Assembly (NCBI GenBank): GCA_002937455.1 | Contig: PTJZ01000001.1 | Span: forward strand, 124,001 to 188,000 | Length of the DNA stretch: 64,000 bases | DNA from: Alphaproteobacteria bacterium MarineAlpha11_Bin1 | GTDB taxonomy: Bacteria; Pseudomonadota; Alphaproteobacteria; MPNO01; UBA830 | Direction: 5' to 3' | Shown: positions 13,584 through 62,040 of the stretch, in pieces | Layout of the letters: each line of letters begins with the position of its first letter | Position numbering within the stretch: the stretch's first letter is position 1 | Notes under the pieces: model-generated | Database searches by the model: none | The model's input: only the letters and a program-made list of their open reading frames with translations | What the model was told of the DNA's origin: nothing | Translations under genes and position numbers: made by a program

Positions 13584-13746
13584 TCTCGAAACGAGAAAAT
13601 AAAATCGGGAAAAAACGAAGAAGAAGGATGATCAGGGAAACACCGATCATAGAAACCGCGAAGGACCCAGCGCTAAACCTGAGTGTCTCGTCACCCGGTG
13701 CGTTGGGATCGTAAGGTTTGGGAGCTGCGCCAGAGTTGTATACCAA
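13564..13746 (-). CDS. Possible small single-pass membrane protein (unrecognised)
   Basis: A 60-codon frame starting at TTG 13746 behind GGGGGA. A proline-rich N terminus (AAPKPYDPNAPGDE) is followed by a strong membrane segment (about residues 29-50, SFAVSMIGVSLIILLLRF). I do not recognise it. Another minus-strand frame overlaps it (13647-13865, 72 codons without a clear start, containing LLDEPFFDHGNNVYD) and also looks protein-like, so this stretch may be a frameshifted remnant instead of a live small gene. Confidence 0.3.
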   Translation of the reverse strand: MVYNSGAAPKPYDPNAPGDETLRFSAGSFAVSMIGVSLIILLLRFFPILFSRFEINYDIP

Positions 13747-14269
13747 GTTCCCCCGCCAAGGGCGTCGTTCGCACGAACCCGAGTTTTCTTATTATTCGGC
13801 TCGGTATCGTAAACGTTATTGCCGTGGTCGAAAAAAGGTTCGTCGAGGAGAAAGATACCTCCATGCTAAACCACATAGGCGTAGGCATAGGTAGGTAATA
13901 GGAGATTTATCAAGAATATAAAACGTAACGGATCAGCGGTGGAAATGTGGCACCATCCCATTGGTCGCCGCGGGTCAACGCCCCGTCTTTAAAGCCCTAG
14001 ACCCGTGCAGATGGAAAGAACAAAAGACTGAAGTAGGTAAACATTCTGCATAGCCGGCACAGAAATAGCTCCAATCAGCAGAAGAAAGCCGATTAACCAA
14101 TACTCTGGTTTCACTAGTTTCTTCCTATCAAGGGAGATCTGCTTATCAGATTTACTCATCAAGGCAATTTAGCGCGGTATGAGTTTTGTTCAATAGGCGA
14201 TCATATAATCGGGATCCCGGCACCTCGCCGGTTGAAAAATTATGCAAAAGAAGATACTGTCCGATCAGT
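13584..14269. other. Decayed, gene-poor stretch before the TetR gene
   Basis: Apart from the two short membrane-protein frames listed, I see no intact gene here. Given the moxR fossil at its left edge, the stretch is best read as the eroded remains of one or more genes. The right end must hold the promoter of the TetR-type regulator. Confidence 0.4.
13989..14159 (-). pseudogene. Short membrane-protein frame, possibly a LivM-like permease remnant
   Basis: A 56-codon minus-strand frame (ATG 14159 to TAA 13989) begins with a charged stretch (MSKSDKQISLDRKK), then a membrane segment (WLIGFLLLIGAISVPAM) and a second hydrophobic stretch ending ICTGLGL. The layout resembles the first 50 residues of branched-chain amino acid ABC permease LivM, which would continue GLNLxxGxxG, but the frame stops there. 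It could be a fossil N terminus or a genuine tiny membrane protein; evidence is thin. Confidence 0.25.
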
Positions 14270-14941
14270 ATGTCGATCAATGGTGTTATGAACACGCGAA
14301 TTCAAAAACTGGATGAAACGTCTGATCGGGAACGTCCGACGACCAAGCGCGAACAGCGTGCGGCGAGTATAGAGGCGTTACTTGGCAAGGCGCTGACGTT
14401 GTTTATAACTCAGGGCTATCATGCGACGACAGTAGAGGTAATTGCGCAAGCCGCTGGTTTGACAAAAGGCGCGGTATATTTTTATTTTAAGAGTAAAGCC
14501 AATGTTCTCAAGGCTTTACTAGATCGCACTGAAGAACTTACTGTCGAGCCGACTATTGCAGCGATGAATGCATCCGGTGAGGACCCAAAAGACCGCCTTA
14601 ACGCTTTCGTGCGATCCCAATCCGTTATTGGCGCAGAGAAAACGGAATATATGTTGCTAGCGATCTTGATGAGTGCCGAGTTCAACGGATCAGGAGACGA
14701 GATTGAGCAACGTTTGATCGAACTGATGGCACGAATGGAGGGTGCCCTTCGGGAAACAGTTAAGTCCGGCCAAAAAAGTGGTATATTCCGAAAGGCAATC
14801 GGAGCGGAAGAATTAGCCAGCATTATAATGGCGATTAACAAGGGGTGTTACGTTGAGTGGTATATGCGGGGTAACGACCTCAAGGGTCAGGATTTTGCGC
14901 GGGCTTTCCGAGATTTCGTATTTGATGGGGTCGCGGCCTAG
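14270..14941 (+). CDS. TetR/AcrR family transcriptional regulator
   Basis: A one-component repressor-type protein of about 223 residues. The N-terminal helix-turn-helix is clear: ALTLFITQGYHATTVEVIAQ, then AAGLTKGAVYFYFKSKANVL, followed by an all-helical ligand domain. It lies 76 bases ahead of the PaaA-like gene on the same strand, and TetR-type regulators (PaaR) control phenylacetate genes in other bacteria, so it probably senses a CoA thioester and controls this cluster. The start is uncertain: ATG 14270 and ATG 14288 are both possible and neither has a strong ribosome binding site. Confidence 0.88.
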   Translation: MSINGVMNTRIQKLDETSDRERPTTKREQRAASIEALLGKALTLFITQGYHATTVEVIAQAAGLTKGAVYFYFKSKANVLKALLDRTEELTVEPTIAAMNASGEDPKDRLNAFVRSQSVIGAEKTEYMLLAILMSAEFNGSGDEIEQRLIELMARMEGALRETVKSGQKSGIFRKAIGAEELASIIMAINKGCYVEWYMRGNDLKGQDFARAFRDFVFDGVAA

Positions 14942-15017
14942 CCCAGACGATGTTCACGTTCTAAATTAGTAATAATAATTCACTAAATCATCCGACAAGA
15001 AGAGAGGGTTAAGAGAA

Positions 15018-15971
15018 ATGGCAACTGCGATCAAAGAGGTTCAGGAAGATCCGCGGGAACGCGCGCTTCAGGAAAAGATTGCCACCGGTTACCAACTCGA
15101 AGATGTTGAGGAAATGACGGACCGATACAAAGATGTCTTGGTCAATACTGTTCACATCGCCGCGGATCTTGAGGTGGTTACGCTACCGACATATTCACCG
15201 GCAATCAAAACCTCTCCAACTTTAGAAGACAAGATTGCGATTGCTGCTGCCTGTCAGGACGAGCTAGGGCACGCCCAGATGATGTACCGTATCTTGGAAG
15301 ACTTTGGATATGATACGCATAAGTTCCTATTTGAACGAGACCCTGAAGAATGGCGGACCTTTCAGATGCTGGAATTTCCGCATGAGGACTACATAGAGTC
15401 TGTGGTTTCAATGTGTTATGGTGACCGCGCTGGATACATTACCACTGTCGATCTAGAAGAAAATTGTTCTTACGGGCCACTTGCCCGATCTTTGCGTAAG
15501 GTCAATTACGAGGAAACCTTCCACGTTAGTCACGGCGAGCGCTGGACAAAATTCTTTTGGAATCAGTCGGAGGAAAGTCGCCGGCGCGTTCAGGAAATGA
15601 TTGATTTCTATTTTCCCCTTTGTGCGTCTTGGTTTGGGATGCCGGACAACCGGAAAACTCGGACTGATCAACTTTCCTACCGTATCCGCGGTGCGTCGAA
15701 TGACGAAATGCGCCAGAAGTGGCTATCGCGTGTGGTTCCATTCTCGGAGAGTGTCGGCATCAAAGTTCCAGCGTATTTCGATGAAGAGACCGGTAAATAT
15801 GTTCTAGATTACGAACCTCCAATCTATCTGGACGAAGAAAAGCGTCAGTGGGATTATGAACGCCAAATTACTTGGGAAGAACAGCTCAAGATCTGGAAGA
15901 AAGGCTCTAAGCATAAGGTGCCGTCGATTGCCCGCGTTATTTCCGAAGAATGGGGAAAAGACCTCTGGTAA
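15018..15971 (+). CDS. PaaA-like di-iron oxygenase catalytic subunit
   Basis: Related to PaaA, the catalytic subunit of ring-1,2-phenylacetyl-CoA epoxidase; 317 residues against about 310 for PaaA. The four-helix ferritin-like fold carries two metal-ligand motifs: E and H in DELGHAQ, and EETFHVSHGERW, with an earlier helix DLEVVTLPTYS giving another carboxylate. These support a di-iron centre that activates O2. It is the first structural gene of a cluster with PaaD-, PaaB- and PaaC-like genes and has AGAGGGTTAAG upstream. There is no paaG, paaZ, paaJ, paaK or paaE in the window, so the substrate need not be phenylacetyl-CoA; another acyl-CoA is possible. Confidence 0.85.
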   Translation: MATAIKEVQEDPRERALQEKIATGYQLEDVEEMTDRYKDVLVNTVHIAADLEVVTLPTYSPAIKTSPTLEDKIAIAAACQDELGHAQMMYRILEDFGYDTHKFLFERDPEEWRTFQMLEFPHEDYIESVVSMCYGDRAGYITTVDLEENCSYGPLARSLRKVNYEETFHVSHGERWTKFFWNQSEESRRRVQEMIDFYFPLCASWFGMPDNRKTRTDQLSYRIRGASNDEMRQKWLSRVVPFSESVGIKVPAYFDEETGKYVLDYEPPIYLDEEKRQWDYERQITWEEQLKIWKKGSKHKVPSIARVISEEWGKDLW

Positions 15972-15998
15972 GTTCTGCACAGTAACCGAACCATCGCG

Positions 15999-16331
15999 AT
16001 GAGTGATCTAATGATCCCGCCTTCGAAAAAGGATGTGGTGCAAGCTCTAGAGAGCGTGCATGACCCTCACGTACCTGTCAGTCTGCGTCGCATGGGAATG
16101 TTGCGCGAGATAGATATCACCGATGATGGCGTAGTGTCCGTACAGGTCTGTATTCCCTGTATGGGGTGCCCCGGTGCAGGAATGTTACGCGAAAACGTTC
16201 GAGAGGCGGTGCAGGCACTTCCCGGGGTGACCGAGGTTTTGGTTGAACAAGGTTGGCACCTACCTTGGTCACGCGACATGATCGAGCCGGAGGTTCAAGA
16301 AATGATGCGCGCCAACGGTATTCAAGTTTGA
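15999..16331 (+). CDS. PaaD N-terminal-like (MIP18/DUF59) iron-sulfur assembly protein
   Basis: A 110-residue protein of the DUF59/MIP18 family, corresponding to the N-terminal half of PaaD. Blocks seen are SVHDPHVPVSLRRMGM (family: DPEIPVxVxxLGL) and CIPCMGCPGAGML (family: TxxGCP), the latter with three cysteines. PaaD-type proteins are thought to help assemble or mature the PaaABC(E) oxygenase. Unlike E. coli PaaD it lacks the C-terminal zinc ribbon, which occurs as a separate gene at 17417. It lies 27 bases after the PaaA-like gene and 15 before the PaaB-like one. Confidence 0.82.
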   Translation: MSDLMIPPSKKDVVQALESVHDPHVPVSLRRMGMLREIDITDDGVVSVQVCIPCMGCPGAGMLRENVREAVQALPGVTEVLVEQGWHLPWSRDMIEPEVQEMMRANGIQV

Positions 16332-16346
16332 AATACGGAAATAAAA

Positions 16347-16619
16347 ATGGCAACTAAACTAAAATCTAGGAAAAAAATTGACCAAAAACGAGAACGAGGC
16401 GGGAAAGAGCCAAAATACTACGAGGTATTTGCTCGTAAGGATTCGCACTCGGAACTGGCACATGTGGGATCAGTAGAGGCTCCCAATGATCAACTCGCTC
16501 AGGTACGTGCTTGGTACATTTACGATCAGCACAAATGGAGAGAAATGTGCGTGGTGCCGCTAGAAGCGATCATCACAGTCACCGAAGAGGGAAAGTCGGC
16601 CAAGATCAAGATGGCTTGA
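16347..16619 (+). CDS. PaaB-like oxygenase subunit
   Basis: A 90-residue protein of the PaaB family, a small subunit bridging PaaAC units in the epoxidase. After a lysine-rich start come KYYEVFARKDSHSELAHVGS and LAQVRAWYIYDQH, the family's core (W-E-VFxRxxxGxxHxHxGSxxAxDxExALxxAR). The C terminus (CVVPLEAIITV) is longer than the minimal form. It sits between the DUF59 gene and the PaaC-like gene with short gaps, so it is one transcript. Confidence 0.82.
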   Translation: MATKLKSRKKIDQKRERGGKEPKYYEVFARKDSHSELAHVGSVEAPNDQLAQVRAWYIYDQHKWREMCVVPLEAIITVTEEGKSAKIKMA

Positions 16620-16647
16620 CCGAGGTCAGATCATAGGAAAAATTAAA

Positions 16648-17427
16648 ATGGTATATACACCAGGTAGCCCAGGCTCCAAATTAGATCAAAATTTTGAAAA
16701 CGATCTCCTAGCAATCGCCGACACCAAATTAGTGTTAGGAAATTGGTATGCTGAATGTACCATGAATGGAAGATCACTTCCTGATTTTGCGGCAATCCTA
16801 GGCATGTGCACAGCGAATTACGGCCACACAAGGGCTATTTATCAGTTCCTCGCTGCGCACGGTCACGATTATGAATATATAGAACGAGGCCGCGGACCGA
16901 AGGAAATCTGCTCGTCCAACCTATTGGATGAAGCGCCTTCCGGATGGGAAGATTTTATCGTCTCCACATGGCTAGCAGAACTGGCGACTTGGATGCTTGC
17001 GTCCGGATTCTTGAAGCACGAGGATCGCGCAGTTGCTGGTATTGCAAAGAAAATTGGCCAAGAAACATACTTTCACCTGAAATATGCGCAGGGTTGGTTC
17101 CAAATTATTGGCGAGGGCAAGACACAATCGAAGTTATTCCAAAGAGCTTTCGCCCGTCGCTACCCATTGTCGCTGCAATGGTACGGTCCTGCCCGTGGCA
17201 AAGATCCGCTTCACGCAGCCGGCATTCGCGACGTTCCCCTGAAAAAATTGCGCGACGCGTTTATCAAGGAAGTCGCCAAAGCGGAAGCTTTACTCGGTTC
17301 TGACCTAATACAGGACAAGTCTATCCAATTTGCCAAGGACTGGCGCTCAGATGCGCGCCGCTTTGGCCCAATGCCGGACAGTTTGTTCGAAATTGTACGT
17401 TTTAAGGACGCCGGACTTGCCCACTGA
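16648..17427 (+). CDS. PaaC-like oxygenase structural subunit
   Basis: A 259-residue ferritin-like protein matching PaaC, the non-catalytic partner of PaaA. Family blocks include LVLGNWYAECTMNGRSLPDF, GHTRAIYQFLAAHGHDYEYI and QETYFHLKYAQGWF. PaaC normally lacks a complete metal site; here GHTR and ETYFHLK keep some ligand-type residues, so occupancy cannot be judged by eye. AGGAAAAATT precedes the ATG. The zinc-ribbon gene begins inside its last codons. Confidence 0.82.
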   Translation: MVYTPGSPGSKLDQNFENDLLAIADTKLVLGNWYAECTMNGRSLPDFAAILGMCTANYGHTRAIYQFLAAHGHDYEYIERGRGPKEICSSNLLDEAPSGWEDFIVSTWLAELATWMLASGFLKHEDRAVAGIAKKIGQETYFHLKYAQGWFQIIGEGKTQSKLFQRAFARRYPLSLQWYGPARGKDPLHAAGIRDVPLKKLRDAFIKEVAKAEALLGSDLIQDKSIQFAKDWRSDARRFGPMPDSLFEIVRFKDAGLAH

Positions 17428-17686
17428 TGGGCCTTCCCATGGTGGCTTCACCCGGGTTGTTAGAGACCCGGGCGGATATGCTGCCCGACAGCGCGATTTA
17501 CATACAGGCGACCCTGACTTTGACGGAGTAACCTGTCCGGAATGCGGTTCCAGTGATCTTGAAGTCATATCATTATTCGGTGGTGCTACATCCGAGGTTA
17601 TGTTCGGCTGCCGGAGCTGCGATACGAGCTTTAACTGGATCAAATGGCGGGGAAAATTGCCACCCGCACCTTCCGTCGATAATTAA
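17417..17686 (+). CDS. Stand-alone zinc ribbon matching the PaaD C terminus
   Basis: About 89 residues with one obvious domain: CPECGSSDLEVISLFGG ... GCRSCDTSFNWIKW. Two CxxC knuckles and the spacing equal the C-terminal zinc ribbon of PaaD (CPxCGSxxTExxSxFGSTxCKxxYxCxxCxxPFxxFK). The most likely start is TTG 17417, with AAGGA eight bases upstream and an 11-base overlap of the PaaC-like gene; TTG 17330 and ATG 17351 are other in-frame choices. Together with the DUF59 gene it would make a complete PaaD from two chains. Confidence 0.72.
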   Translation: MPTDGPSHGGFTRVVRDPGGYAARQRDLHTGDPDFDGVTCPECGSSDLEVISLFGGATSEVMFGCRSCDTSFNWIKWRGKLPPAPSVDN

Positions 17687-17702
17687 TACCGAGTAATACC
17701 CT

Positions 17703-18464
17703 ATGTCTAAAAACCCTCGCCCGTCGCTGATGTCGGCGGAAGACTCCTTACGCCAGCGAAAAAGAGAAATGACCGATCCCGGCATGCCTCGTCCAGATAT
17801 GCACGCTGAAGATGCGCTGGTTTCAAGGCGTTCTATCCGCGCATTCCAGAACAAACCTGTGCCGAGAGATCTGATGCGGCGTATTTTGGAAGCTGCCCGC
17901 TGGGCCCCGTCCGGTTCAAATATCCAGCCGTGGAAGGTACACGTCCTCAACGGAAACGCGCGGCGTAAATATACGGATGCAATGATCGCAGCTGAAAAAA
18001 GCGGCGAACCGCGCGATATGCAATATCACTATTATCCGAGAGAGTTCCGCGAGGAATTTCTATTCCGTCGGCGCGCCTGTGGATTCGGACTTTATGGGGC
18101 ATTGGAGATTGCCCGAGAAGACCGCGAATCTCGCCGCGACGCCTTTGTAAGTAACTACAGATTCTTTGGAGCTGCCACCGGGCTAATCTTCTGGATTCCA
18201 TCAGAGTTGGAGCATGGCTCATGGCTAGACTATGGAACCTTCATACAGTCTATCTCTGTGGCAGCACGTGGCTGGGGACTATCGACTATCGCTCAGGGAG
18301 CGCTTGGAGAATTTCCCCACATCGCTCACGAAATGTTCGAGGTGGGAGACGACTTCACCCTGATAGGTGGCATGAGCATTGGTTGGCCAGCTAAGGGCTC
18401 TTCGGTCAACTTGTTCCAGCCTGACCGCATTGATGTCGACGACTTCACTACCTGGCTGGATTAA
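17703..18464 (+). CDS. Nitroreductase family flavoprotein
   Basis: An FMN-dependent oxidoreductase of 253 residues. Family motifs: SRRSIRAFQNKPVPRDLMRR at the N terminus, AARWAPSGSNIQPWKVHVLN for FMN binding, and GLSTIAQGAL near the C terminus. About 40 residues precede the core. It lies 16 bases after the zinc-ribbon gene and 12 before the crotonase gene, inside the oxygenase cluster. As no PaaE-like ferredoxin reductase is present, it could feed electrons to the di-iron enzyme or reduce a ring product; this is inference from position only. Confidence 0.88.
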   Translation: MSKNPRPSLMSAEDSLRQRKREMTDPGMPRPDMHAEDALVSRRSIRAFQNKPVPRDLMRRILEAARWAPSGSNIQPWKVHVLNGNARRKYTDAMIAAEKSGEPRDMQYHYYPREFREEFLFRRRACGFGLYGALEIAREDRESRRDAFVSNYRFFGAATGLIFWIPSELEHGSWLDYGTFIQSISVAARGWGLSTIAQGALGEFPHIAHEMFEVGDDFTLIGGMSIGWPAKGSSVNLFQPDRIDVDDFTTWLD

Positions 18465-18476
18465 GAGGGACGATTA

Positions 18477-19271
18477 ATGGACTACAGCAAATACAAAACA
18501 CTTTTATTCGAGAAACATGAGCGCGTTTTGACCGTCACCCTGAACCGGCCCGAGAAGCTTAATGCTATCAATGGACCAATGCATGTTGAGCTATCCCAAG
18601 TCTTTGAAGATATAAATCGTGACCGATCCGTGGACGTCGTTATCCTGACAGGAGCTGGGCGCGCTTTCTGCGCTGGTGGAGATGCCGAGTGGCTGCAAGA
18701 ACTAATCGACGAACCGTGGGGGTGGGAAACACTGTCTGAAGAAGGCAAGCGTTCCATGATATCAATCTTAGATTGCCGACAACCAGTCATTGCCAAGCTT
18801 AACGGCGCGGCTGCGGGGTTAGGCGCGACTCTAGCACTATACTGCGATGTCATTATGGCGGCAGACACCGCGCGGATCGGCGATCCCCACGTTAAGGTCG
18901 GTCTGACCGCCGGTGACGGTGGCTCAGGGATTTGGCCCTATTTAATCGGTTTCGCCCGTGCCCGAGAGTTTCTTTATACCGGCGAGATGCTGACGGCGGA
19001 GCGCGCTGCTAATATGGGATTAATTAATCGCTGCGTACCCGCTGAGGAACTGGATAAAGTCGTTAACGATTTTTCTCACGAGCTCGCCAATGGCGCGATA
19101 CGCGCAATCCAATGGACCAAACAGGCCATCAATGCTCCGCTCAAACAGATTGTGTCCGCCAATTTGGATTATTCGCTATCACTGGAATCGAAGTCCAACA
19201 TTACCGAGGATCACCAAGAAGGTATCAATGCACTGCGCGAAAAACGCAAGCCTGTCTTCAAAGGAAAATAA
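18477..19271 (+). CDS. Crotonase family protein (enoyl-CoA hydratase/isomerase-like)
   Basis: A 264-residue CoA-binding protein of the crotonase superfamily. The oxyanion loops are seen as GAGRAFCAGGD and NGAAAGLGATLAL. Both classical hydratase glutamates are replaced: the GGGCE position is GAT, and the QPE position is DPH (in ARIGDPHVKVGLTAGDGG). So plain enoyl-CoA hydration is unlikely; isomerase, hydrolase or ring-opening roles are open. It is the last gene of the PaaA-like cluster and ends 15 bases before a perfect terminator hairpin. Confidence 0.88.
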   Translation: MDYSKYKTLLFEKHERVLTVTLNRPEKLNAINGPMHVELSQVFEDINRDRSVDVVILTGAGRAFCAGGDAEWLQELIDEPWGWETLSEEGKRSMISILDCRQPVIAKLNGAAAGLGATLALYCDVIMAADTARIGDPHVKVGLTAGDGGSGIWPYLIGFARAREFLYTGEMLTAERAANMGLINRCVPAEELDKVVNDFSHELANGAIRAIQWTKQAINAPLKQIVSANLDYSLSLESKSNITEDHQEGINALREKRKPVFKGK

Positions 19272-19338: not shown

Positions 19339-20343
19339 CTACTTCCGTGTCTTAGCCGCAGTTGCCTTAATCAGCTTGTACATAGGCGCGATCTTGGGAT
19401 CTTTTAGAAAGATATTTTCCAACGGACGCAGCTTGGCGAGGGCGGTTTTTCTCTCATCCTCGTTCAAACGAATTACCGTACCGCCTTCGTCGCCCCATTT
19501 CTTCTCCCAAGCCTTCGTATCGTCTTCAGACCACTTGTTCGCGGTTGCCGTAACTTCCTTGCCGACTTGGTCGAGAATTTCCCGCTGCTTTTGAGACAAT
19601 TTGGCAAGCCATTTAGCACTAGTCCACATAGCAGTCGGTATATAGGTAAAGTGGGTTGGGGTCAGGTACTTTGCCGCCGTATAAAATTTCGACGGTCCCA
19701 TAACAACAACCGCGGAACTGGCACCATCAATCACACGACGCTGTATTGCAGGCAGAACTTCAGAATAGGGCATCGGCGTACCCGCTGCACCCAGTTCCCG
19801 CATAATCGCTACTTCCATCGGAGAGGCGAGGACTCTGATCTTCTTACCTTTGGCATCGCTAAGTGAGCGAACTGGGTTTCGCATAGCAAAGGCGGATGCG
19901 CCTGCACACACGATATACTTACCCGTCACTCCCTTTGAAGTGGCAAGGTTTAGAAACTTTTCGCGCACGTCGGGGTGATTCAATGTGTTGGTCTGATGCG
20001 CGAAGCTATCAAAAAGACCGGGTGCGTCAGGCGCGGCAAATGCTGGGTTCAGGCCTTTAAAGAAACCGGGAGGTGAGATAAAGGCCTCCTGCGTTCCCAA
20101 AAGTACGCCTTCAATCTGGCGCGGAATTTTACCGAGTTGAGCTGCCGGAAATACCTTTACGTCAATGGATCCGCCTGTCCGTTTATTCACTTCTTTCTGG
20201 ATCCATTTAGCCGATTTATGTTGGCCATCATTGATCGTTACAAAACCAATTTTCATAACAGTTGCCGCGGCAACAAAGGTAGGTGTTAACGCCACTGCGG
20301 CGCCAAGCGCAACGGTGGACATAATTATTCTATTGAACTTCAT
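19339..20343 (-). CDS. TRAP transporter substrate-binding protein (DctP family)
   Basis: A periplasmic solute-binding protein of 334 residues, with signal peptide 1 to about 27 (ending FVAAA). DctP-family features include the central FAMRNPVRSLSDAKGKKIRV, which carries the arginine that binds the ligand carboxylate, and MPYSEVLPAIQRRVIDGASS. It should bring an organic acid to a DctQM membrane pair, but no such genes are in the window, so it is an orphan here. AGGGAGG stands before the start. It lies after the catabolic minus-strand genes, separated from them by a 94-base gap. Confidence 0.93.
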   Translation of the reverse strand: MKFNRIIMSTVALGAAVALTPTFVAAATVMKIGFVTINDGQHKSAKWIQKEVNKRTGGSIDVKVFPAAQLGKIPRQIEGVLLGTQEAFISPPGFFKGLNPAFAAPDAPGLFDSFAHQTNTLNHPDVREKFLNLATSKGVTGKYIVCAGASAFAMRNPVRSLSDAKGKKIRVLASPMEVAIMRELGAAGTPMPYSEVLPAIQRRVIDGASSAVVVMGPSKFYTAAKYLTPTHFTYIPTAMWTSAKWLAKLSQKQREILDQVGKEVTATANKWSEDDTKAWEKKWGDEGGTVIRLNEDERKTALAKLRPLENIFLKDPKIAPMYKLIKATAAKTRK

Positions 20344-20437
20344 TTAATCCTCCCTTGGAAACACACAAACTAAATTTACAATACACAGAAATATAATAAG
20401 CTAGAGAAATCACTGAACGCAAATCGATCCTGGCATT

Positions 20438-20803
20438 TCAGTTTTCTTCGACCAATCCCATAAAGGCGGATTTAGAGATTAAAAGCCGCTCGTGTTGACC
20501 CCGGGCTATCTCTGTAACCCCTGATCGCACGAAAACATTGAAAATAATACGTTTCCTATCTATTCCTGAAATGACCGCATCAGCCTCGAGATATGAGCCC
20601 TGTTCCGCATCACCCCAAAACCAAATATCGTTTCGTATGCCAACGCTGGCATCATCGTTGTCGTAACGGGCAGCGAGTATATTATGGCACGCCATTTCGC
20701 AAGCGAGGTGGAGGGTTTTGACCGAAACGCCTGACTTGTCAAAATGCGCGTTTGACAGAGGCACTAATTGCCTTGCCATCAGACCCGTTCGGTACTCAGG
20801 CAT
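20438..20803 (-). CDS. Hotdog-fold thioesterase-like protein
   Basis: A 121-residue protein that looks like an acyl-CoA thioesterase or dehydratase of the hotdog superfamily, by length and by the pattern HLACEMACHNILAARYD followed by a beta-rich C-terminal half (ADAVISGIDRKRIIFNVFV, EIARGQHERLLI). I cannot assign the subfamily with certainty; it resembles FlK-like proteins. Its ATG overlaps the stop of the preceding hotdog gene (TGATG), so the pair is co-translated and probably forms a heteromer. Confidence 0.65.
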   Translation of the reverse strand: MPEYRTGLMARQLVPLSNAHFDKSGVSVKTLHLACEMACHNILAARYDNDDASVGIRNDIWFWGDAEQGSYLEADAVISGIDRKRIIFNVFVRSGVTEIARGQHERLLISKSAFMGLVEEN

Positions 20804-21135
20804 CAGGCAAAGGACCGGCTGACGTGACCATTCACTATTTCACGCATCGAATCTTTCCCATCAATACGACATACAACGAGGGTCTCAGTCACCGCGATGA
20901 TTTTGGCAGTAATCCGAACAGTGTCCCCGATCGAGGTGGCTGCGACATGACGGATATCGACCCGCATCCGGCGCGTCGAAATCTCACTACACGCTTTGGC
21001 GGCGGCATCATCACATAGTGCCGCGAGGCAGGGTGTCGCCAACACGTTAACACCAGGATTCCCAAGAGTTTCAGCGGATAGCGCTTCAGTGACCTCGGTC
21101 GGAATTTGAACCGACTTTCCTATTTCTAAAAGCAT
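20803..21135 (-). CDS. Hotdog-fold thioesterase-like protein, FlK type
   Basis: A 110-residue protein with the pattern of FlK-type (fluoroacetyl-CoA thioesterase-like) hotdog proteins: VLATPCLAALCDDAAAKAC for the long helix, then VDIRHVAATSIGDTVRITAK (family: hxHxAPTPxG) and a last strand EIVNGHVSRSFA. Members cleave short acyl-CoAs. It follows the MBL-fold gene by 3 bases and overlaps the next hotdog gene. The family's catalytic Thr/Glu/His set is not fully checkable by eye. Confidence 0.7.
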   Translation of the reverse strand: MLLEIGKSVQIPTEVTEALSAETLGNPGVNVLATPCLAALCDDAAAKACSEISTRRMRVDIRHVAATSIGDTVRITAKIIAVTETLVVCRIDGKDSMREIVNGHVSRSFA

Positions 21136-21138
21136 AGT

Positions 21139-22200
21139 TTAGGCTACACGTCGATATCGGATAATATCGTCTTCGTCGCGTCGGCGAGTAAGTGAGCCAT
21201 TATCCACTAGGTAGTTCAGGTGCGCGAGAGTTTCACCTATAGCGAACCCGAATTCAAAAACGCCGATTTTGCGACTAAAAAGCGAGGGGATCACTTCGGC
21301 TGCTGTTTGCGGCTCTGCACAAACCTTGAGGGCAGCGTCTAGCCGCAACTGGTGGTGCGACCTGAGGTCATCCAACCGGTCATGCAAACCCCGGAAGGGA
21401 TAGTCGTGCGAGGGAAGCACCAGCACATCTCGCGGAAGGTGGCGATACTTTTTAAAACTCTCGAAATAATGGCGAAGGGGGTTACCATCTGGCTCGGTAT
21501 ACCAGAGGCTGATATTCGAGCTTATCCGGGGTAAAATCTGATCACCAGAGATAAGCACGTTAAGGTCCTCACACCATAGTGATGCGTGTTCATGGCTATG
21601 ACCTCCACCAGTGATGATCTGCCAAGTGCGGCCGCCGATATTGATCCTCTCGTTATCCTGAATTCGTTTGACTGTTTCTGGCAATCGGTACCATGGGTCC
21701 TGGAACGCGGCACGGACCTCTTTAAAGCCGGCAGTCATCTCATCGGGTGCCCCATTATCTCTATAGAACTCGATCCAGCGATCGAAGTTGTGGGTTACTG
21801 TCTCTGAAACCGCAACATGACCCTGCAGCCATTCGGCATAGGTCATCCAAAGCGTTGCACCGTACTTTTCTTCAAACCACCCCGCTAGGCCCAGATGATC
21901 GGGATGAAAATGCGTCACGATAGTCCGTTTTATAGGTGCAGCAGGAGCAATGTCGTTGATCGCACTGCTCCAGATTCTCTTGATTTCGTCGACGTTATAA
22001 CCCGTGTCAATAACAGTCCATCCATTTCCATCCTCAAGTAGCCAGAGATTGACATGATCTAGAGCAAACGGCAGAGGCATACGCACCCAGTAGATTCCGG
22101 GCGCTACGTTGAGAGTTTCGCCGTATTCCAGTTTTGGAAAGGGATAATCAGGAATATAGGACATGGCGGGTTTTATAGGGGTGCCGTTTATCAGCGGCAA
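21139..22200 (-). CDS. MBL-fold metallo-hydrolase
   Basis: A 353-residue metallo-beta-lactamase-fold protein. The zinc motif THFHPDHLGLAGW (HxHxDH) is intact, further ligands sit in GGGHSHEHASLW and SGDQILPRISSNIS, and a C-terminal winged-helix-like region follows, as in LACTB2-type proteins. Substrates in this group include thioesters and RNA; the catabolic context favours an acyl thioester or lactone. It overlaps the alpha/beta hydrolase gene by ten bases and lies 3 bases from the hotdog pair. Confidence 0.88.
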   Translation of the reverse strand: MPLINGTPIKPAMSYIPDYPFPKLEYGETLNVAPGIYWVRMPLPFALDHVNLWLLEDGNGWTVIDTGYNVDEIKRIWSSAINDIAPAAPIKRTIVTHFHPDHLGLAGWFEEKYGATLWMTYAEWLQGHVAVSETVTHNFDRWIEFYRDNGAPDEMTAGFKEVRAAFQDPWYRLPETVKRIQDNERINIGGRTWQIITGGGHSHEHASLWCEDLNVLISGDQILPRISSNISLWYTEPDGNPLRHYFESFKKYRHLPRDVLVLPSHDYPFRGLHDRLDDLRSHHQLRLDAALKVCAEPQTAAEVIPSLFSRKIGVFEFGFAIGETLAHLNYLVDNGSLTRRRDEDDIIRYRRVA

Positions 22201-23012
22201 TAAGGATCAAGGAAGTCTTTGATGTACCCGACTATTCGGGGCCGATCCTCTAACTGAGGGAAGTGGCCTAACCCTTCGATCATCTCGGTCTCGGCATGTT
22301 TAACTGCCCTTCCAATACTCTTGAGTTGGCTCGGTAAACCATAGGCATCTTCTGACCCTTGTAGAGACATAAGCGGGACTTCGATCGCAGAAATTTCTCT
22401 GGAAATATCCCAAGTGTCATAAAGCGTTTTCTGCCAGACTTCAGTCCAACATTTTAGAAGATGGGCCGCATTCTCCCCGTGAAAACGGGGCATCCACTCG
22501 GGGATATTGCCATCTTGGTACATTTCTTTGTGACGCAGGACCTGATCATAAGTTAGTCTATCCCGCCGTACATGAGCAGCGATTGTAACAATAGCCCTCA
22601 CCCGCCCACGATAACGGGCCCCATGAAGTAATGCAATTGTTCCGCCGTCCGAATGCCCTACGAGACAGCAATCTTCTATCCCGGCAACCGCTAGTACTTC
22701 TTCGAGAGTGTCAGCGGCATGACTCATGAAATTGACGGGAAACTCGGGTTCGGGATCTGATCGGCCATACCCGAAGCGATCAAACACGAAAGTGGGAAGT
22801 CCGAGTTCAGTCCCCGCATGCCCCGGGAATTCCCGCATAGTTCCGACACTTCCAAGACCGTCATGAAGAAATACCAGCGCTGGTTTACCAACCTCAGGCG
22901 GCGTCCGCCAAACGCCAAATATTTGGCGCCCTCTAACCGTCAGCCATGTCGCTCCGGCAACGCCCTCAGGAGGATCTGAAATAGCCGGAAAAGAGGAGAT
23001 CGGGGTGACCAT
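22191..23012 (-). CDS. Alpha/beta hydrolase
   Basis: A 273-residue serine hydrolase. The nucleophile elbow is GHSDGG, the acid is probably the Asp in LQGSEDAYG, and the histidine is in EGLGHFPQLE. LVFLHDGLGSVGTM provides the oxyanion hole (family: HG). No signal peptide, so cytoplasmic. It overlaps the MBL-fold gene and is separated from the ketopantoate-reductase-like gene by 129 bases. Substrate unknown; meta-cleavage-product or ester hydrolases share this layout. Confidence 0.88.
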   Translation of the reverse strand: MVTPISSFPAISDPPEGVAGATWLTVRGRQIFGVWRTPPEVGKPALVFLHDGLGSVGTMREFPGHAGTELGLPTFVFDRFGYGRSDPEPEFPVNFMSHAADTLEEVLAVAGIEDCCLVGHSDGGTIALLHGARYRGRVRAIVTIAAHVRRDRLTYDQVLRHKEMYQDGNIPEWMPRFHGENAAHLLKCWTEVWQKTLYDTWDISREISAIEVPLMSLQGSEDAYGLPSQLKSIGRAVKHAETEMIEGLGHFPQLEDRPRIVGYIKDFLDPYCR

Positions 23013-24145: not shown

Positions 24146-25675
24146 TCATCCAAGTCCCAGCTTTTCAGCGAGACCAATACGTTGAAGTTTTCCAGTCGCC
24201 CCCTTCGGAATCTCCTCGAGGATCAGTACACGGCGCGGAACCTTAAAGTCGGCGAGGCGCTCGGATACGAAATTGCGTACTTCGCCCTCCTCTGTAGATT
24301 CGCCCTCCCGTAAAACGACGGCGGCCGCCACTTCCTCGCCGAGTTTCTCATGGGGCATGGAAAACGTAACGGCCTGCTCCACAGCTGGATGATCCATGAG
24401 GACTTCATCCACTTCACGAGGAGAAATCTTCTCACCACCACGATTGATGATTTCCTTTAGCCTACCGGTAATCGAAATATAACCCTCTTGGTCTATCACC
24501 CCCTGATCCCCGGTCCGAAACCAGCCATCAGTGAAGGCGCTAGCATTCGCATCAGGGTTATTCTCATAACCAGGTGTGACATTGGGGCCACGTATTACTA
24601 TCTCTCCCACCTGTCCAACCTCCAATAAACTGCTGTCGGCTTCATCCATTATTGCCACCTCGGGACCAGCAGCAATGCCAACGGAACCAGGCTTACGTAC
24701 CGCCGGCGGCAGGGGATTGCAGGCCATTTGATGGGCGGCCTCTGTCATACCGTAGGCCTCAACAACAGGCACATCGAAGGTGGCCTCAAGTTCTTTCATC
24801 ACCTGCGGTGGCAGAGAGGACGAAGAAGAACGGACAAGCCGCAAGTTCCTACGGGCACGCTCCACACTGTCAGCGTTGCGGCCAGCTCTGGACAGCAGTG
24901 CCTGATGCATGGTGGGGACCGCCGTGTACCAACTGGGCTCAATTTCATCAAGCCAGCTATAGACTCGGAGAGCATTAAATCCGGGTGCGCAGTAAACACT
25001 CGCCCCGGCGCCCAAAGAAGACAGCACAGCGGCAATCAAGCCATGAATGTGAAATAGTGGCATGATGTTCATGCATCGGTCGCCTGACACCAAGTTAAGT
25101 GATGTACTTATGTGACGGGCCGATGCTGTAACGTTCTGCTGGGTTAATGGCACAATCTTGGGACGCGATGTCGTTCCCGACGTATGCAGTACAAGTGCGA
25201 TGTCTCCCGCCTCCGCCATACCGCTATTCGAGGGAACTCCCACATTTTCGCCCTCTAAATGGAAATTGCCGGCGAGCCCACTTTTATCTGGAACCAGTTT
25301 AAGGATCGGTATACCTCGCTCGGCCGCTGCTATAAGTGCGGGTGAATCTGATCCTTCTTCCACCACAAGCGCCTTAGCCTTTAGATCGGTGAGGTAAAAA
25401 TCGAACTCCTCTTGGCGATAAGCGGGGTTGAGCGGTGCCGTGGTAGCGCCGCAGCCGATAGAAATAAACGCGGCTGCCATTTCGGCACTGTTAGGCAATA
25501 CTATAGCGACCCGATCATTATTCCCGATACCTAGTTTATTCAGACGGACAACCGTTTTATCAGCCAGCGAGCGGAGACCCGCGTAATTTAGGGCTTCGCG
25601 TTCCGGGGCACCAATTGCCGGCGAGGGGCCGTCACCAACATCAAGTAAATCTCTGATCGTAGTGTGTTCTGCCAT
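24146..25675 (-). CDS. AMP-forming acyl-CoA ligase
   Basis: A 509-residue adenylate-forming enzyme joining an acid to CoA with ATP. Core motifs are complete: LHTSGTTSRPKIVPLT (A3), YGMTEAAHQ (A5), GWFRTGDQGVIDQEGYI (A7), the hinge GRLKEIINRGGEKISPREVD (A8) and the catalytic lysine in PKGATGKLQR (A10). Overall flavour is like fungal/plant oxalyl-CoA synthetases and FadD-like enzymes, but substrate cannot be read from sequence. It starts 17 bases after malate synthase G ends, so the two may share a transcript. Confidence 0.9.
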   Translation of the reverse strand: MAEHTTIRDLLDVGDGPSPAIGAPEREALNYAGLRSLADKTVVRLNKLGIGNNDRVAIVLPNSAEMAAAFISIGCGATTAPLNPAYRQEEFDFYLTDLKAKALVVEEGSDSPALIAAAERGIPILKLVPDKSGLAGNFHLEGENVGVPSNSGMAEAGDIALVLHTSGTTSRPKIVPLTQQNVTASARHISTSLNLVSGDRCMNIMPLFHIHGLIAAVLSSLGAGASVYCAPGFNALRVYSWLDEIEPSWYTAVPTMHQALLSRAGRNADSVERARRNLRLVRSSSSSLPPQVMKELEATFDVPVVEAYGMTEAAHQMACNPLPPAVRKPGSVGIAAGPEVAIMDEADSSLLEVGQVGEIVIRGPNVTPGYENNPDANASAFTDGWFRTGDQGVIDQEGYISITGRLKEIINRGGEKISPREVDEVLMDHPAVEQAVTFSMPHEKLGEEVAAAVVLREGESTEEGEVRNFVSERLADFKVPRRVLILEEIPKGATGKLQRIGLAEKLGLG

Positions 25676-29327: not shown

Positions 29328-30503
29328 ATGACCAATGTCGTAATTGCAAGCGCCGCGCGTACGCCGGTAGGATCGTTCAACGGATCCCTTAGCTCTCTGT
29401 CCGCATCCGATCTTGGCAGGGTAGCGATCGAAGCCGCCCTCGAACGAGCTGGTGTCGGGCCCGACGATGTATCTGAAGTCATCATGGGTCAGATCCTGAC
29501 TGCAGCCCAAGGTCAGAATCCGGCCCGTCAAGCATCCATTGGCGCAGGACTACCTGTTGAAGTACCAGCCTATGGCGTCAACCAGCTGTGTGGATCCGGA
29601 CTGAAATCAGTCGCCATGGGCTTACAAGCCATCCAGAATGGTGACTCCGGTATCGTTGTCGCGGGAGGTCAAGAATCGATGAGTATGGCACCACATGCCT
29701 CTAACCTCCGCAGCGGCACAAAGATGGGTAGCACAGAATTTGTTGATACTATGATAAAGGACGGCCTATGGGATTCTTTCAACGGCTATCATATGGGTGT
29801 AACTGCGGAAAACGTTGCAGAAAAATGGCAGATCACTCGTGAACAGCAGGATGAATTCGCAGCATCGTCGCAGAACAAGGCAGAAGCAGCTAAAAAAACT
29901 GGCAAATTTAAAGATGAGATTATCCCGGTTACAGTCAAAACCCGAAAGGGTGAAGTAACGGTCGAGGAAGATGAATATCCCAAGCCTGGTGTTACCGCCG
30001 AAGCCCTTGGGGCTCTGCGTCCCGCTTTTGATAAAGAGGGTACTGTCACGGCCGGGAATGCGTCAGGTATCAATGATGGAGCCGCAGCCCTCGTACTGAT
30101 GTCTGAAGAAGAGGCGCGAAGCCGCAATATCAAGCCGATGGCTCGGATTGTTTCCTGGGCGCAGGTCGGCGTCGAGCCCGCTATCATGGGATCAGGGCCA
30201 ATCCCTGCAAGTCGGTCGGCACTTAAGAAAGCAGGTTGGTCGGCCGCCGACTTAGATCTTATAGAGGCAAACGAGGCATTTGCGGCGCAGGCCTGCGCGG
30301 TAAACAAGGATCTCGGCTGGGATGCGAACAAAGTAAATGTCAACGGCGGCGCAATCGCGATTGGACATCCAATCGGCGCATCCGGCGCCCGCGTCCTGAC
30401 TACTCTTTTGTACGAAATGCAGAAACGTGACTCCAAGAAGGGTCTCGCTACGCTTTGTATCGGTGGTGGCATGGGGATCGCCATGTGCGTAGAGCGCGAC
30501 TAA
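29328..30503 (+). CDS. phaA: Acetyl-CoA C-acetyltransferase (beta-ketothiolase)
   Basis: Joins two acetyl-CoA to acetoacetyl-CoA (or the reverse); 391 residues, standard for biosynthetic thiolases. The nucleophile cysteine is in [19 protein letters not shown], with [28 protein letters not shown] (His) and CIGGGMGIA (second Cys) all present. AAGGGAAA precedes the ATG. Being divergent from phaR suggests a PHB role, but phaB does not follow; the next gene is 500 bases away and unrelated, so a general thiolase (atoB-like) role is also possible. Confidence 0.95.
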
Positions 30504-60789: not shown

Positions 60790-62040
60790 TCAGTTCGATA
60801 CGTATACAGGATATTTGACGAAACCACGGAACCGCGCACGGGGATGATGTGCAGCCGTTCCTGAGGGGTTTATGTTAGCGAACCGCTGAACAAAACGCAG
60901 TAAAGCGATACGAGCTTCCATCCGGCCTAGCGAAATTCCGGCACAAGAATGTATTCCCGAACCGAATGCAAAGTGCCGGTTCTTCTCTCGCATGATATTC
61001 GGGGTATCGGGCTGTGAAAATATCTCTGGATCCCGATTCGCAGCGCCTATACATAGCCAGATATAGTCTCCTTTTTTCATAGAGACGCCGCCGATTTCTG
61101 CATTGTCGACAAGTCTCCGATTGTTCAATTGTACCGGGCTCTCGAATCTGAGAACCTCCTCAATAGCGGAAACGATAAGACTAGGATCTTTTCTTAGACG
61201 TTCCATCTCGGTGGGATAGCGCAATAGGATGTCGATCCCGTTCGTGACAGTGTTGGCTGTTGTTTCATGTCCGGCATTCAGTAGAAAAATGCAGTTATGG
61301 AGTAATTCTAGTTCATTCAGAGACTCCCCGTTAACGTCTGGGCCAATCAGCTTAGAAAGCACCTCACCATTTTCATCAGAAAGTGGTTTTCTTTCGCGTT
61401 CTGCAATCAGCCAGCGAAGATATTCCTTGAATTCGTCGACAGACTGCGCCGCCGCATCCCGTTTATCCACCGTCAGATCGGCTTCTAGCCCGCCGAGGAT
61501 CGACACCGCCCAGGGCGATAATTTGTACCGGTCATTCCTCGGCACGCCCAACATGTCGCCTATTAGTTCGATTGGCAGCTTCATTGCGTAATCCTGAAGG
61601 AGATCAAACGTCCCCATTTCTTGTACGGCATCAAGAGACGCATCAACCACCTCAATGACTCGCGATTCGAGCGCTCTTAAAGCCCGCGGCGTGAACGCCG
61701 GTGCCAAACGCTTGCGGACTCGCGTGTGGCCTGGCGGGTCGTTGAATACGAGGCTAGTTGTGTGGTGTTCATAAAGAGACGTGTCTCCCATCTTCTCCTT
61801 AAAATCCAATTTCTTGTCCGATGAAAAAAGCGTCGGGTTTTGATAAACGGAGTCAAGATCCGGATGCCGGGTCAGAAACCACGCGCCCGAGGGCATTTTA
61901 TGAACTGGCGCATACCGCCGTAGCGCATGGAAAACTGGATACGGATTTTCGTAAAAATCACGGTCAAGTGATACTATATCGAACGCGGCTATCTCTTTTT
62001 CTCCGACTTCCACGATACCGTGGTATAAATCTGCGTTCAT
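60790..62040 (-). CDS. Cytochrome P450
   Basis: A soluble bacterial P450 of 416 residues (CYP-type mono-oxygenase). The I-helix oxygen motif is NAGHETTANTV, the K-helix ExxR is in EEVLRFES, and the haem loop FGSGIHSCAGISLGRMEARI holds the cysteine ligand. The N terminus has no membrane anchor. It overlaps the GMC oxidoreductase gene by four bases (ATGA), so the two are made together; an alcohol formed by the P450 could be oxidised by the partner. No ferredoxin or reductase is in view. Confidence 0.93.
   Translation of the reverse strand: MNADLYHGIVEVGEKEIAAFDIVSLDRDFYENPYPVFHALRRYAPVHKMPSGAWFLTRHPDLDSVYQNPTLFSSDKKLDFKEKMGDTSLYEHHTTSLVFNDPPGHTRVRKRLAPAFTPRALRALESRVIEVVDASLDAVQEMGTFDLLQDYAMKLPIELIGDMLGVPRNDRYKLSPWAVSILGGLEADLTVDKRDAAAQSVDEFKEYLRWLIAERERKPLSDENGEVLSKLIGPDVNGESLNELELLHNCIFLLNAGHETTANTVTNGIDILLRYPTEMERLRKDPSLIVSAIEEVLRFESPVQLNNRRLVDNAEIGGVSMKKGDYIWLCIGAANRDPEIFSQPDTPNIMREKNRHFAFGSGIHSCAGISLGRMEARIALLRFVQRFANINPSGTAAHHPRARFRGFVKYPVYVSN

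Follow-up and report, generated by a model that had tools for sequence, protein, structure and literature searches.

A probable TetR-controlled operon for a PaaABCD-type di-iron oxygenase on a branch separate from phenylacetyl-CoA epoxidase

Introduction

The phenylacetyl-coenzyme A (CoA) epoxidase of Escherichia coli, PaaABC(D)E (TIGR02156-TIGR02160), is one of the closest described systems to a run of eight genes that we analyzed in a 64,000-nucleotide stretch of DNA (the window) from Alphaproteobacteria bacterium MarineAlpha11_Bin1 (assembly GCA_002937455.1, contig PTJZ01000001.1, positions 124,001 to 188,000). The genes lie on the forward strand at 14288-19271 of the window, with small gaps or overlaps, and encode in this order a TetR regulator, a PaaA-like protein, a DUF59 protein, a PaaB-like protein, a PaaC-like protein, a zinc ribbon, a nitroreductase and a crotonase. 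The likeness to the E. coli system extends to the A, B and C subunits, the PaaD domains, the six di-iron ligands, the fold (template modeling (TM) score of 0.81 to 3pw8) and a crotonase in the cluster that, like PaaG, is without the hydratase glutamates. Unlike their E. coli counterparts, the window proteins form part of a separate clade, PaaD is split, with its DUF59 half between A and B, and the cluster is without PaaE, the lysine bridge, Phe108, and an adjacent PaaK or PaaZ. The last two residue features are described for PaaA, in which Lys68 forms a bridge with Glu49, Glu72 and Asp126, with a suggested part in electron transfer from PaaE, and in which Phe108 orients the phenylacetyl group (PMC4498308).

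Three further systems invite comparison. The haloarchaeal paaABCDE cluster (Haloferax; NCBIfam paad_haloarch and paae_haloarch) also has PaaD split into DUF59 and zinc-ribbon genes, and no flavin reductase is annotated in the fetched stretch. Unlike the window, Haloferax has the order A-B-C-D-Zn, and its PaaA, with K68, E49 and F108, belongs to the canonical clade. BoxB, the benzoyl-CoA epoxidase, is likewise a di-iron ferritin-like oxygenase acting on a CoA thioester, with a weak fold match (TM 0.54-0.60 by query length), but it is a single chain of about 470 residues, compared with 317 for the window A subunit, and genomes close to the window hold it separately; TIGR03225 was not among the NCBIfam matches of window A at 0.01. 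SSO1313 (PDB 4mud), a ring-oxidation-like protein of Sulfolobus, shares the PaaA-like fold (TM 0.86 by target length), but is shorter (235 residues) and only 21% identical. A search limited to one library of open-access papers found no description of a family with the gene order of the window, and a match to "PaaA-like" in PMC2948915 was set aside, as the matching passage concerns another protein.

Results

A search with the window PaaA-like protein gave 340 database relatives at 1e-10, the best 120 of which ranged from 91% down to 47% identity. Several of these 120 are named "phenylacetyl-CoA epoxidase subunit PaaA" at their source. A scan of one genome per species, which used motifs absent from canonical PaaA and is uninformative on relative abundance, yielded 133 relatives, the best 80 of which were taken as loci. 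A plasmid collection held 139 matching records, and five of this type were added (Agrobacterium, a Natrialbaceae archaeon, Thermus, Haloterrigena and Haladaptatus). Together with the window, these 85 loci make a set of 86 (loci are labeled L and genomes G). We call near the 23 loci with at least 47% identity to the window PaaA-like protein (22 plus the window) and far the other 63, which have 36-43% identity.

The phylogeny shows the predicted window oxygenase to belong to a branch separate from canonical PaaA. The tree comprised 119 rows, namely the 23 near A subunits, 27 of the 63 far ones, eight canonical ones, the matching C subunits, and three other di-iron proteins. The near A subunits, including that of the window, formed a 23-row clade (100/99) and the far ones a 27-row clade (99/97), and the two joined as sisters at 100/97, with canonical PaaA in a clade of its own (100/99). 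Near C subunits likewise grouped together (100/99), away from canonical PaaC (93/81), and far C subunits did not form a single clade. The tree program warned of long branches among the C rows, where the join of canonical PaaC is possibly false; the result for A is independent of the C rows. An earlier note on this DNA, made from its letters, had suggested a separate type of oxygenase and named such a phylogeny as a check. The suggestion was supported by the tree, which placed window A outside the true PaaA clade, the reverse of the placement that the note had listed as part of its refutation, and window C outside the PaaC clade, and also by scores far under the NCBIfam cut-offs for PaaA and PaaC and by co-existence with a canonical cluster in some hosts, both detailed below.

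A common trait of the branch is that genes for A, DUF59, B, C and the zinc ribbon follow one another in this order on the same strand (A-D-B-C-Zn). Of the 73 loci whose sequence extends 3.5 kb or more beyond the A gene, 65 have this arrangement (19 of 21 near and 46 of 52 far; 11 far loci and one near locus were shorter and left out), and the remaining eight differ solely by having no detectable zinc ribbon. Such clusters occur in bacteria and haloarchaea. In the survey of gene neighborhoods, a check that the earlier note had called for, the nitroreductase was present at 5 of the 23 near loci. At one far locus, L003 on the Thermus thermophilus plasmid pTF27b, the cluster also includes crotonases, an aldehyde dehydrogenase and a PaaY-type protein with hexapeptide repeats.

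The active site of the A subunit combines conserved and divergent features. The di-iron ligands of PaaA, E42, E72, H75, D126, E155 and H158, correspond to E52, E82, H85, D136, E166 and H169 of window A, so that all six are present, including the two E-x-x-H motifs (E82/H85 and E166/H169) that the earlier note had recognized. The alignment contained 85 of the 86 locus rows, one having been dropped for a frame of more than 380 residues. The ligands are kept in 85/85 rows, except for E155 (PaaA numbering), which is kept in 83/85, and in all database rows aligned at those columns (117-120 of the best 120). Lys68 and Glu49, present in all eight canonical rows, are found in none of the 85 family rows. 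Window A has A78 and Y59 at these positions and thus no lysine bridge; position 68 is Ala in 22 near rows and Ser in one, and Ile in 56 far rows, Val in 5 and Ser in one. The Phe108 column is Phe in 8/8 canonical and 61/62 far rows, but Leu (18, including the window), Ile (2), Thr (2) or Val (1) in the 23 near rows, and it is Phe in none of the best 120 database rows. An AlphaFold2 model of window A, built with 28 sequences, had a predicted local distance difference test (pLDDT) score of 91.4 and a predicted TM (pTM) score of 0.89. Its best PDB matches in Foldseek were PaaA chains (TM 0.80-0.81, 23-24% identity), followed by PaaC, SSO1313 and BoxB.

Profile searches placed all eight operon proteins above the curated Pfam family cut-offs, so that the eight genes of the earlier note were recovered in full, in one run on one strand ahead of a strong terminator. 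Scores against the NCBIfam models of the canonical proteins were much lower: 121.9 bits for window A against a PaaA (TIGR02156) cut-off of 280, 28.9 for B against 85.45, and 37.7 for C against 133.35. The DUF59 and zinc-ribbon genes, which are a split PaaD, so that PaaD is present, gave 54.5 and 29.0 bits, and neither reached the PaaD cut-off of 108.15. The top NCBIfam match of the DUF59 gene was a SUF-associated protein (71.2 against a cut-off of 143.4 bits), and that of the PaaB-like gene was the haloarchaeal Htur_1727 family (33.3 against 57.2 bits). The latter family is labeled a radical S-adenosylmethionine (rSAM)-partnered candidate ribosomally synthesized and post-translationally modified peptide (RiPP); it may in reality consist of PaaB-like proteins from clusters of this kind. 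No ATG start is available to the zinc-ribbon frame 3' of the paaC-like stop. A TTG at 17417, from which the frame overlaps the paaC-like gene by 11 bases, is kept in L006, L007 and L008.

The cluster is without a PaaE of its own, and this is the general rule in the family. A tblastn search of the window with the E. coli Paa proteins (limit 1e-4) gave no match to PaaE, PaaZ or PaaH anywhere in its 64 kb. The earlier note had also counted PaaG, PaaJ and PaaF as missing, which does not strictly hold: the crotonase shares 35% of its residues with PaaG and 31% with PaaF of E. coli, and 10 kb from the operon, at 29328-30503, the window encodes a thiolase like PaaJ (44% identity). Across the 86 loci (tblastn at 1e-8, over 35% of the query; 63 of 85 have at least 5 kb on both sides), PaaE was found in none. 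The one BenC-type reductase was that of L024, which lies 9.6 kb upstream and had served as the query. A 2Fe-2S ferredoxin was detected at two haloarchaeal loci, L004 (from which the query came) and L005.

Genome searches in 11 of the 80 locus hosts indicated that the two systems can coexist. In five hosts (those of L010, L011, L013, L015 and L017), canonical PaaA and PaaE, both over cut-off and on the same contig, were present besides the PaaA-like gene, which suggests that the PaaA-like cluster is a separate system. Scores against TIGR02156 were 89-123 bits for the PaaA-like proteins of the 11 hosts and 504-560 bits for the five canonical copies. No canonical PaaA or PaaE over cut-off was found in the other six (G001-G004, G007 and G011), namely four close metagenome-assembled genomes (MAGs) that host L006-L009, the host of L012, and Mycobacterium SM1, the host of L024. 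BoxB was considered as a linked function, since 9 of the 11 hosts have it, but 22 of the 27 genomes in the order to which the close MAGs belong have it too, and its presence says nothing specific about the operon.

The C subunit differs from the A subunit at the metal site. Window C has K27, N57, H60, E111, T140 and H143 in the ligand columns and thus neither E-x-x-H motif. Both motifs are present in 57/57 far C rows and in only 4 of 23 near rows, including the deep-branching L002 and L024 (80 rows in total), which suggests that the metal site of C decayed within the near clade. The position of the first Glu ligand is Lys in 78 of 79 C rows and Arg in one. Far-clade C subunits (for example L003, L041, L062 and L083) have an invariant Lys in place of the first Glu and an altered metal site. 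We tentatively raise a rather doubtful possibility: that a second PaaA/PaaC branch, named phenylacetyl-CoA epoxidase, works without a dedicated reductase or lysine bridge, and that far C may hold a second, altered metal site for electron entry or oxygen activation.

The nitroreductase gene is present at the window locus, L006, L007, L008 and L012, and in the window and L006-L008 it stands between the zinc ribbon and the crotonase. The L009 locus ends after the C gene, and in the same genome a nitroreductase followed by a crotonase is found at the start of another contig. The gene is not at the locus in L010, L011 and L013, whose PaaA-like proteins have 75-78% identity (L010 and L013 are short contigs). 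The hosts of L010 and L011 have no nitroreductase match genome-wide at 1e-25, and the host of L013 only one of 41%. In the order of the close MAGs, the PaaA-like gene occurs in 5 of 27 genomes and a nitroreductase match at 1e-20 in seven, namely the same five (60-79% identity), G012 (64%) and G022 (33%). In G012 (L140, contig G012:C580, 10425-13942), the nitroreductase adjoins a ligase 68% identical to a benzoate-CoA-ligase-family protein of L012 and a metallo-beta-lactamase-fold (MBL) gene (60%), and this MAG has no PaaA-like match at 1e-60, so that the module is there without oxygenase genes. Among the best 120 of 1446 nitroreductase relatives at 1e-30, identity runs from 100% down to 57%, the nearly full-length ones having at least 320 bits. 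Identity then drops to 52% in a single relative and to 50% or less, over most of the length, in all others but a few fragments. This gap suggests that the nitroreductase may belong to a discrete subfamily.

In the crotonase, T118 and H138 stand where a hydratase has its two glutamates, and the same two residues are found in the relatives from L006, L008, L010, L011, L012 and L015. The catalytic residues of enoyl-CoA hydratase, Glu144 and Glu164 in its numbering, are thus both replaced in the window protein; E. coli PaaF has both glutamates and E. coli PaaG has neither. Their loss makes it unlikely that the crotonase is a plain hydratase, and it may instead be a PaaG-like isomerase or a hydrolase. 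Asp147 is kept in the relatives, but lies one column off the PaaG aspartate, and a MenB/BadI-like ring-opening activity was dropped as a candidate. The best PDB matches (3rrv, 6sl9 and 3qk8) name no reaction beyond enoyl-CoA hydratase/isomerase.

Sequences upstream of tetR suggest how the operon may be regulated. The best-conserved stretch there, in the window and four relatives, comprises TTGAA, GATACT and a palindrome. TTGAA and GATACT are identical in all five aligned rows, the window included, and form promoter-like boxes, although the site was not among the results of a consensus promoter scan of the window. The palindrome arms are identical in the window, L006, L007 and L009 and variant in L008. 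The gap between tetR and the A gene has no comparable conserved block, except for a short purine-rich stretch, and tetR is therefore probably the first gene of the operon, repressing itself and the rest. The earlier note had recognized the tetR gene but started it at 14270; the ATG at 14288, which is aligned in four relatives, is likelier, the palindrome covering 14254-14271.

A longer operator motif, built from the aligned rows, matches the window once when up to 3 mismatches are allowed (0.09 expected). In four close genomes the exact motif occurs only before this tetR, a match that is exact by construction, as the motif was written from these sites. Five genomes gave 27 matches at up to 3 mismatches, compared with 10 for a backward-pattern control, and 23 against 10 after removal of the four exact sites. 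Of these motif sites 20 were inspected: one, with 3 mismatches, was near a tetR of the L012 host, most others were within frames, and no clear pathway gene was seen behind any. A looser form of the palindrome (up to 2 mismatches) has 5 matches in the window against 1.41 expected, a number reached in 0 of 100 shuffles; a weak copy with 2 mismatches, at 20427-20444 between dctP and a pair of hotdog genes, is a possible site upstream of dctP. At the other end of the operon, terminator-like sites in the region are not above chance in number (8 found, 8.5 expected), but the hairpin behind the crotonase gene is by far the strongest, the runner-up having 9 pairs.

Several genes beyond the terminator are shared with related loci (Table 1). 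The MBL gene goes with the operon at five loci, namely the window, L006, L007, L008 and, in a rearranged form, L012. DctP is found at all of these but L008, and the alpha/beta hydrolase at all but L006, whose stretch ends before that position. The window also shares the FlK-type hotdog pair with L006 and L008, and L012 has a hotdog-like gene. Acyl- or aryl-CoA ligase matches were found within the fetched stretch of 20 of the 23 near loci, and an L012 ligase exceeds the cut-off of the benzoate-CoA ligase family (389.6 against 375.25 bits). UbiX/UbiD-type enzymes often act on aromatic acids. In L024 (Mycobacterium) a UbiD family gene exceeds the cut-off; L011 (Amycolatopsis) has a UbiX gene that does so and a UbiD-like gene that does not (110.6 against 244.85). 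These UbiD-/UbiX-type genes lie downstream of the oxygenase genes (L011 15028-17207; L024 16266-18472). Collectively, the predicted neighbors suggest that an organic acid, probably an aromatic one, is taken up and activated with CoA.

Table 1. Features of the operon and of the adjoining genes (window coordinates).
Feature	Position	Strand	Basis or remark
Promoter-like boxes TTGAAA ... GATACT, 15-base spacer, 5' of tetR	14232..14258	+	Conservation
Probable operator, palindrome ATACTG-N6-CAGTAT, overlapping the -10-like box	14254..14271	.	Conservation
tetR	14288..14941	+	TetR_N 56.7 bits; start by conservation
PaaA-like catalytic di-iron subunit (predicted), 317 aa	15018..15971	+	Pfam PaaA_PaaC 174.5 bits; tree; ligand columns; AlphaFold2 model
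DUF59 protein, N-terminal half of PaaD	15999..16331	+	FeS_assembly_P/DUF59 70.5 bits; 28% identity to E. coli PaaD over 106 aa
PaaB-like bridging subunit (predicted)	16347..16619	+	Pfam PaaB 33.0 bits (cut-off 27)
PaaC-like structural subunit (predicted), metal site degenerate	16648..17427	+	Pfam PaaA_PaaC 74.0 bits; tree; ligand columns
Zinc ribbon, C-terminal half of PaaD	17417..17686	+	Zn_ribbon_PaaD 40.7 bits; TTG start kept in L006-L008
Flavin mononucleotide (FMN) nitroreductase-family protein, 253 aa	17703..18464	+	Pfam Nitroreductase 96.6 bits; best PDB sequence match 3gr3
Crotonase-fold protein	18477..19271	+	ECH_1 195.7 bits; aligned with PaaF, PaaG and six relatives; PDB matches
Bidirectional intrinsic terminator, 19 pairs (10 G-C), 4-base loop	19286..19327	.	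Between the crotonase gene and convergent dctP
DctP solute-binding protein	19339-20343	-	Pfam; convergent to the operon
FlK-type (fluoroacetyl-CoA thioesterase family) hotdog genes, two	20438-20803, 20803-21135	-	Pfam
MBL hydrolase	21139-22200	-	Pfam
Alpha/beta hydrolase	22191-23012	-	Pfam

Two further observations concern genes outside the operon. Close relatives have a gene of 164-165 codons 5' of tetR (L006 1689-2186, L007 7696-8193, L008 8329-8826 and L009 7453-7947), with a glyoxalase fold by Pfam in L008. At 13683-13898 the window has a 71-residue frame in which a similar stretch can be seen by eye and which has no Pfam domain; it looks like a decayed version of this gene. At 60790-63659, genes for a cytochrome P450 and a GMC oxidoreductase share a few bases where they overlap, and the two likely form an oxidation unit.

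Discussion

We consider it fairly probable that the eight genes form a TetR-controlled operon for a di-iron oxygenase of the PaaABCD type that acts on a CoA thioester and represents a branch separate from phenylacetyl-CoA epoxidase. A substrate acid, most likely aromatic or at least unsaturated, would be activated by an acyl- or aryl-CoA ligase. By comparison with the canonical enzyme, the PaaA-like protein, with its PaaA fold and six iron ligands, would then act with the PaaC-like protein as paralogous partner and the PaaB-like protein as bridge, the two PaaD halves would mature the metal site, and the product would be an epoxide or hydroxyl compound that the crotonase would isomerize or open. 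The FMN nitroreductase may reduce the substrate or a later intermediate, and electrons for the oxygenase might come from a shared ferredoxin and reductase encoded elsewhere, with no dedicated PaaE. From the conserved palindrome over the promoter-like boxes, TetR may repress the operon until an acyl-CoA of the pathway releases it. The substrate is likely to be other than phenylacetyl-CoA; the acyl-CoA of another kind that the earlier note had invoked is still a supposition, now backed by the change from Phe108 to Leu and by the ligase matches at most near loci.

Several points weigh against this interpretation. PaaG also is without the hydratase glutamates, so that the crotonase is equally compatible with an epoxide of the phenylacetate type. 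Orthologues of the L012 ligases are missing from the window, and its sole nearby ligase (24146-25675), 4.9 kb past the end of the operon, scores as a generic fatty-acid ligase. The close genomes are incomplete MAGs, so the absence of canonical paa genes from them counts for little. An operon without PaaE is in itself not diagnostic, since the canonical operon of Haloferax (L087) also is without it. As that operon is without a flavin reductase and its PaaA nevertheless has K68, the lysine bridge and PaaE are not lost in close association. Nor does the PaaR operon that PMC6651687 tabulates for T. thermophilus HB8 include paaE, and a 2009 survey gives paaE 23 times for 25 paaA (PMC2653477).

One alternative is that the enzyme is a diverged epoxidase for phenylacetyl-CoA or a close homologue, replacing PaaABC in hosts without canonical paa genes. 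Besides the shared fold, ligands and subunits and the PaaG-like crotonase, this alternative can draw on the six genomes in which no canonical PaaA exceeded the cut-off, on the Phe108 that the far clade keeps, and on the neighbors at the 63 far loci, where 25 have a match to aldehyde dehydrogenase, 19 to crotonase, 4 to PaaK and 4 to PaaY-type proteins (the aldehyde dehydrogenase and PaaY-type queries were taken from L003). We nevertheless regard it as improbable, because both systems occur together in 5 of 11 hosts, Phe108 is replaced in every near row, PaaK and PaaE have no match at the 23 near loci, and PaaZ is never the top-scoring reference there, though 3 of the 23 have an aldehyde dehydrogenase match. 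Hydroxylation or desaturation of an aliphatic or isoprenoid acyl-CoA, rather than attack on an aromatic ring, would fit the Leu in place of Phe108, the neighbors of the beta-oxidation type at near loci (PaaH-type at 6 and PaaJ-type at 8 of 23, window included) and the several neighboring ligases that score as generic fatty-acyl ligases. Characterized PaaA and BoxB, however, act on arylacetyl- or aryl-CoA, and the benzoate-CoA-ligase-family neighbor in L012, with its orthologue beside the nitroreductase in G012, and the UbiX/UbiD-type genes in L011 and L024 also make an aliphatic substrate a reading of little likelihood.

The earlier note had offered two roles for the nitroreductase. Reduction of the product is a candidate role, but that of electron donor is unlikely. 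The place of the gene inside the operon in the window and L006-L008, and the presence of a close relative in all five genomes of the order with a PaaA-like gene, would suit a donor dedicated to the oxygenase. This idea is nonetheless highly improbable, given that the gene is absent from the loci of L010, L011 and L013 (L010 and L013 being short contigs), with no or only a distant match elsewhere in these hosts, and that the absence of PaaE is general in the family. The pairing in G012 of the nitroreductase with an aryl-CoA ligase and the MBL gene, but not with an oxygenase, favors a catabolic reduction step instead, with the caveat that the MAG may be incomplete.

The operon is made of ordinary parts, which the earlier note had seen correctly, but they belong to a branch of the PaaA-type oxygenases that is both distinct and widespread. 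For enzymology, the branch raises the questions of how electrons reach a PaaA-type di-iron site without PaaE or a lysine bridge, and of which CoA-linked acid is attacked. PaaA and PaaC have been proposed as genomic markers of phenylacetate degradation, in a method that, as described, also requires a nearby phenylacetate-CoA ligase (PMC13186573). As members of the branch carry the PaaA name, the potential for phenylacetate degradation may be overcounted where names, or PaaA and PaaC alone, are used.

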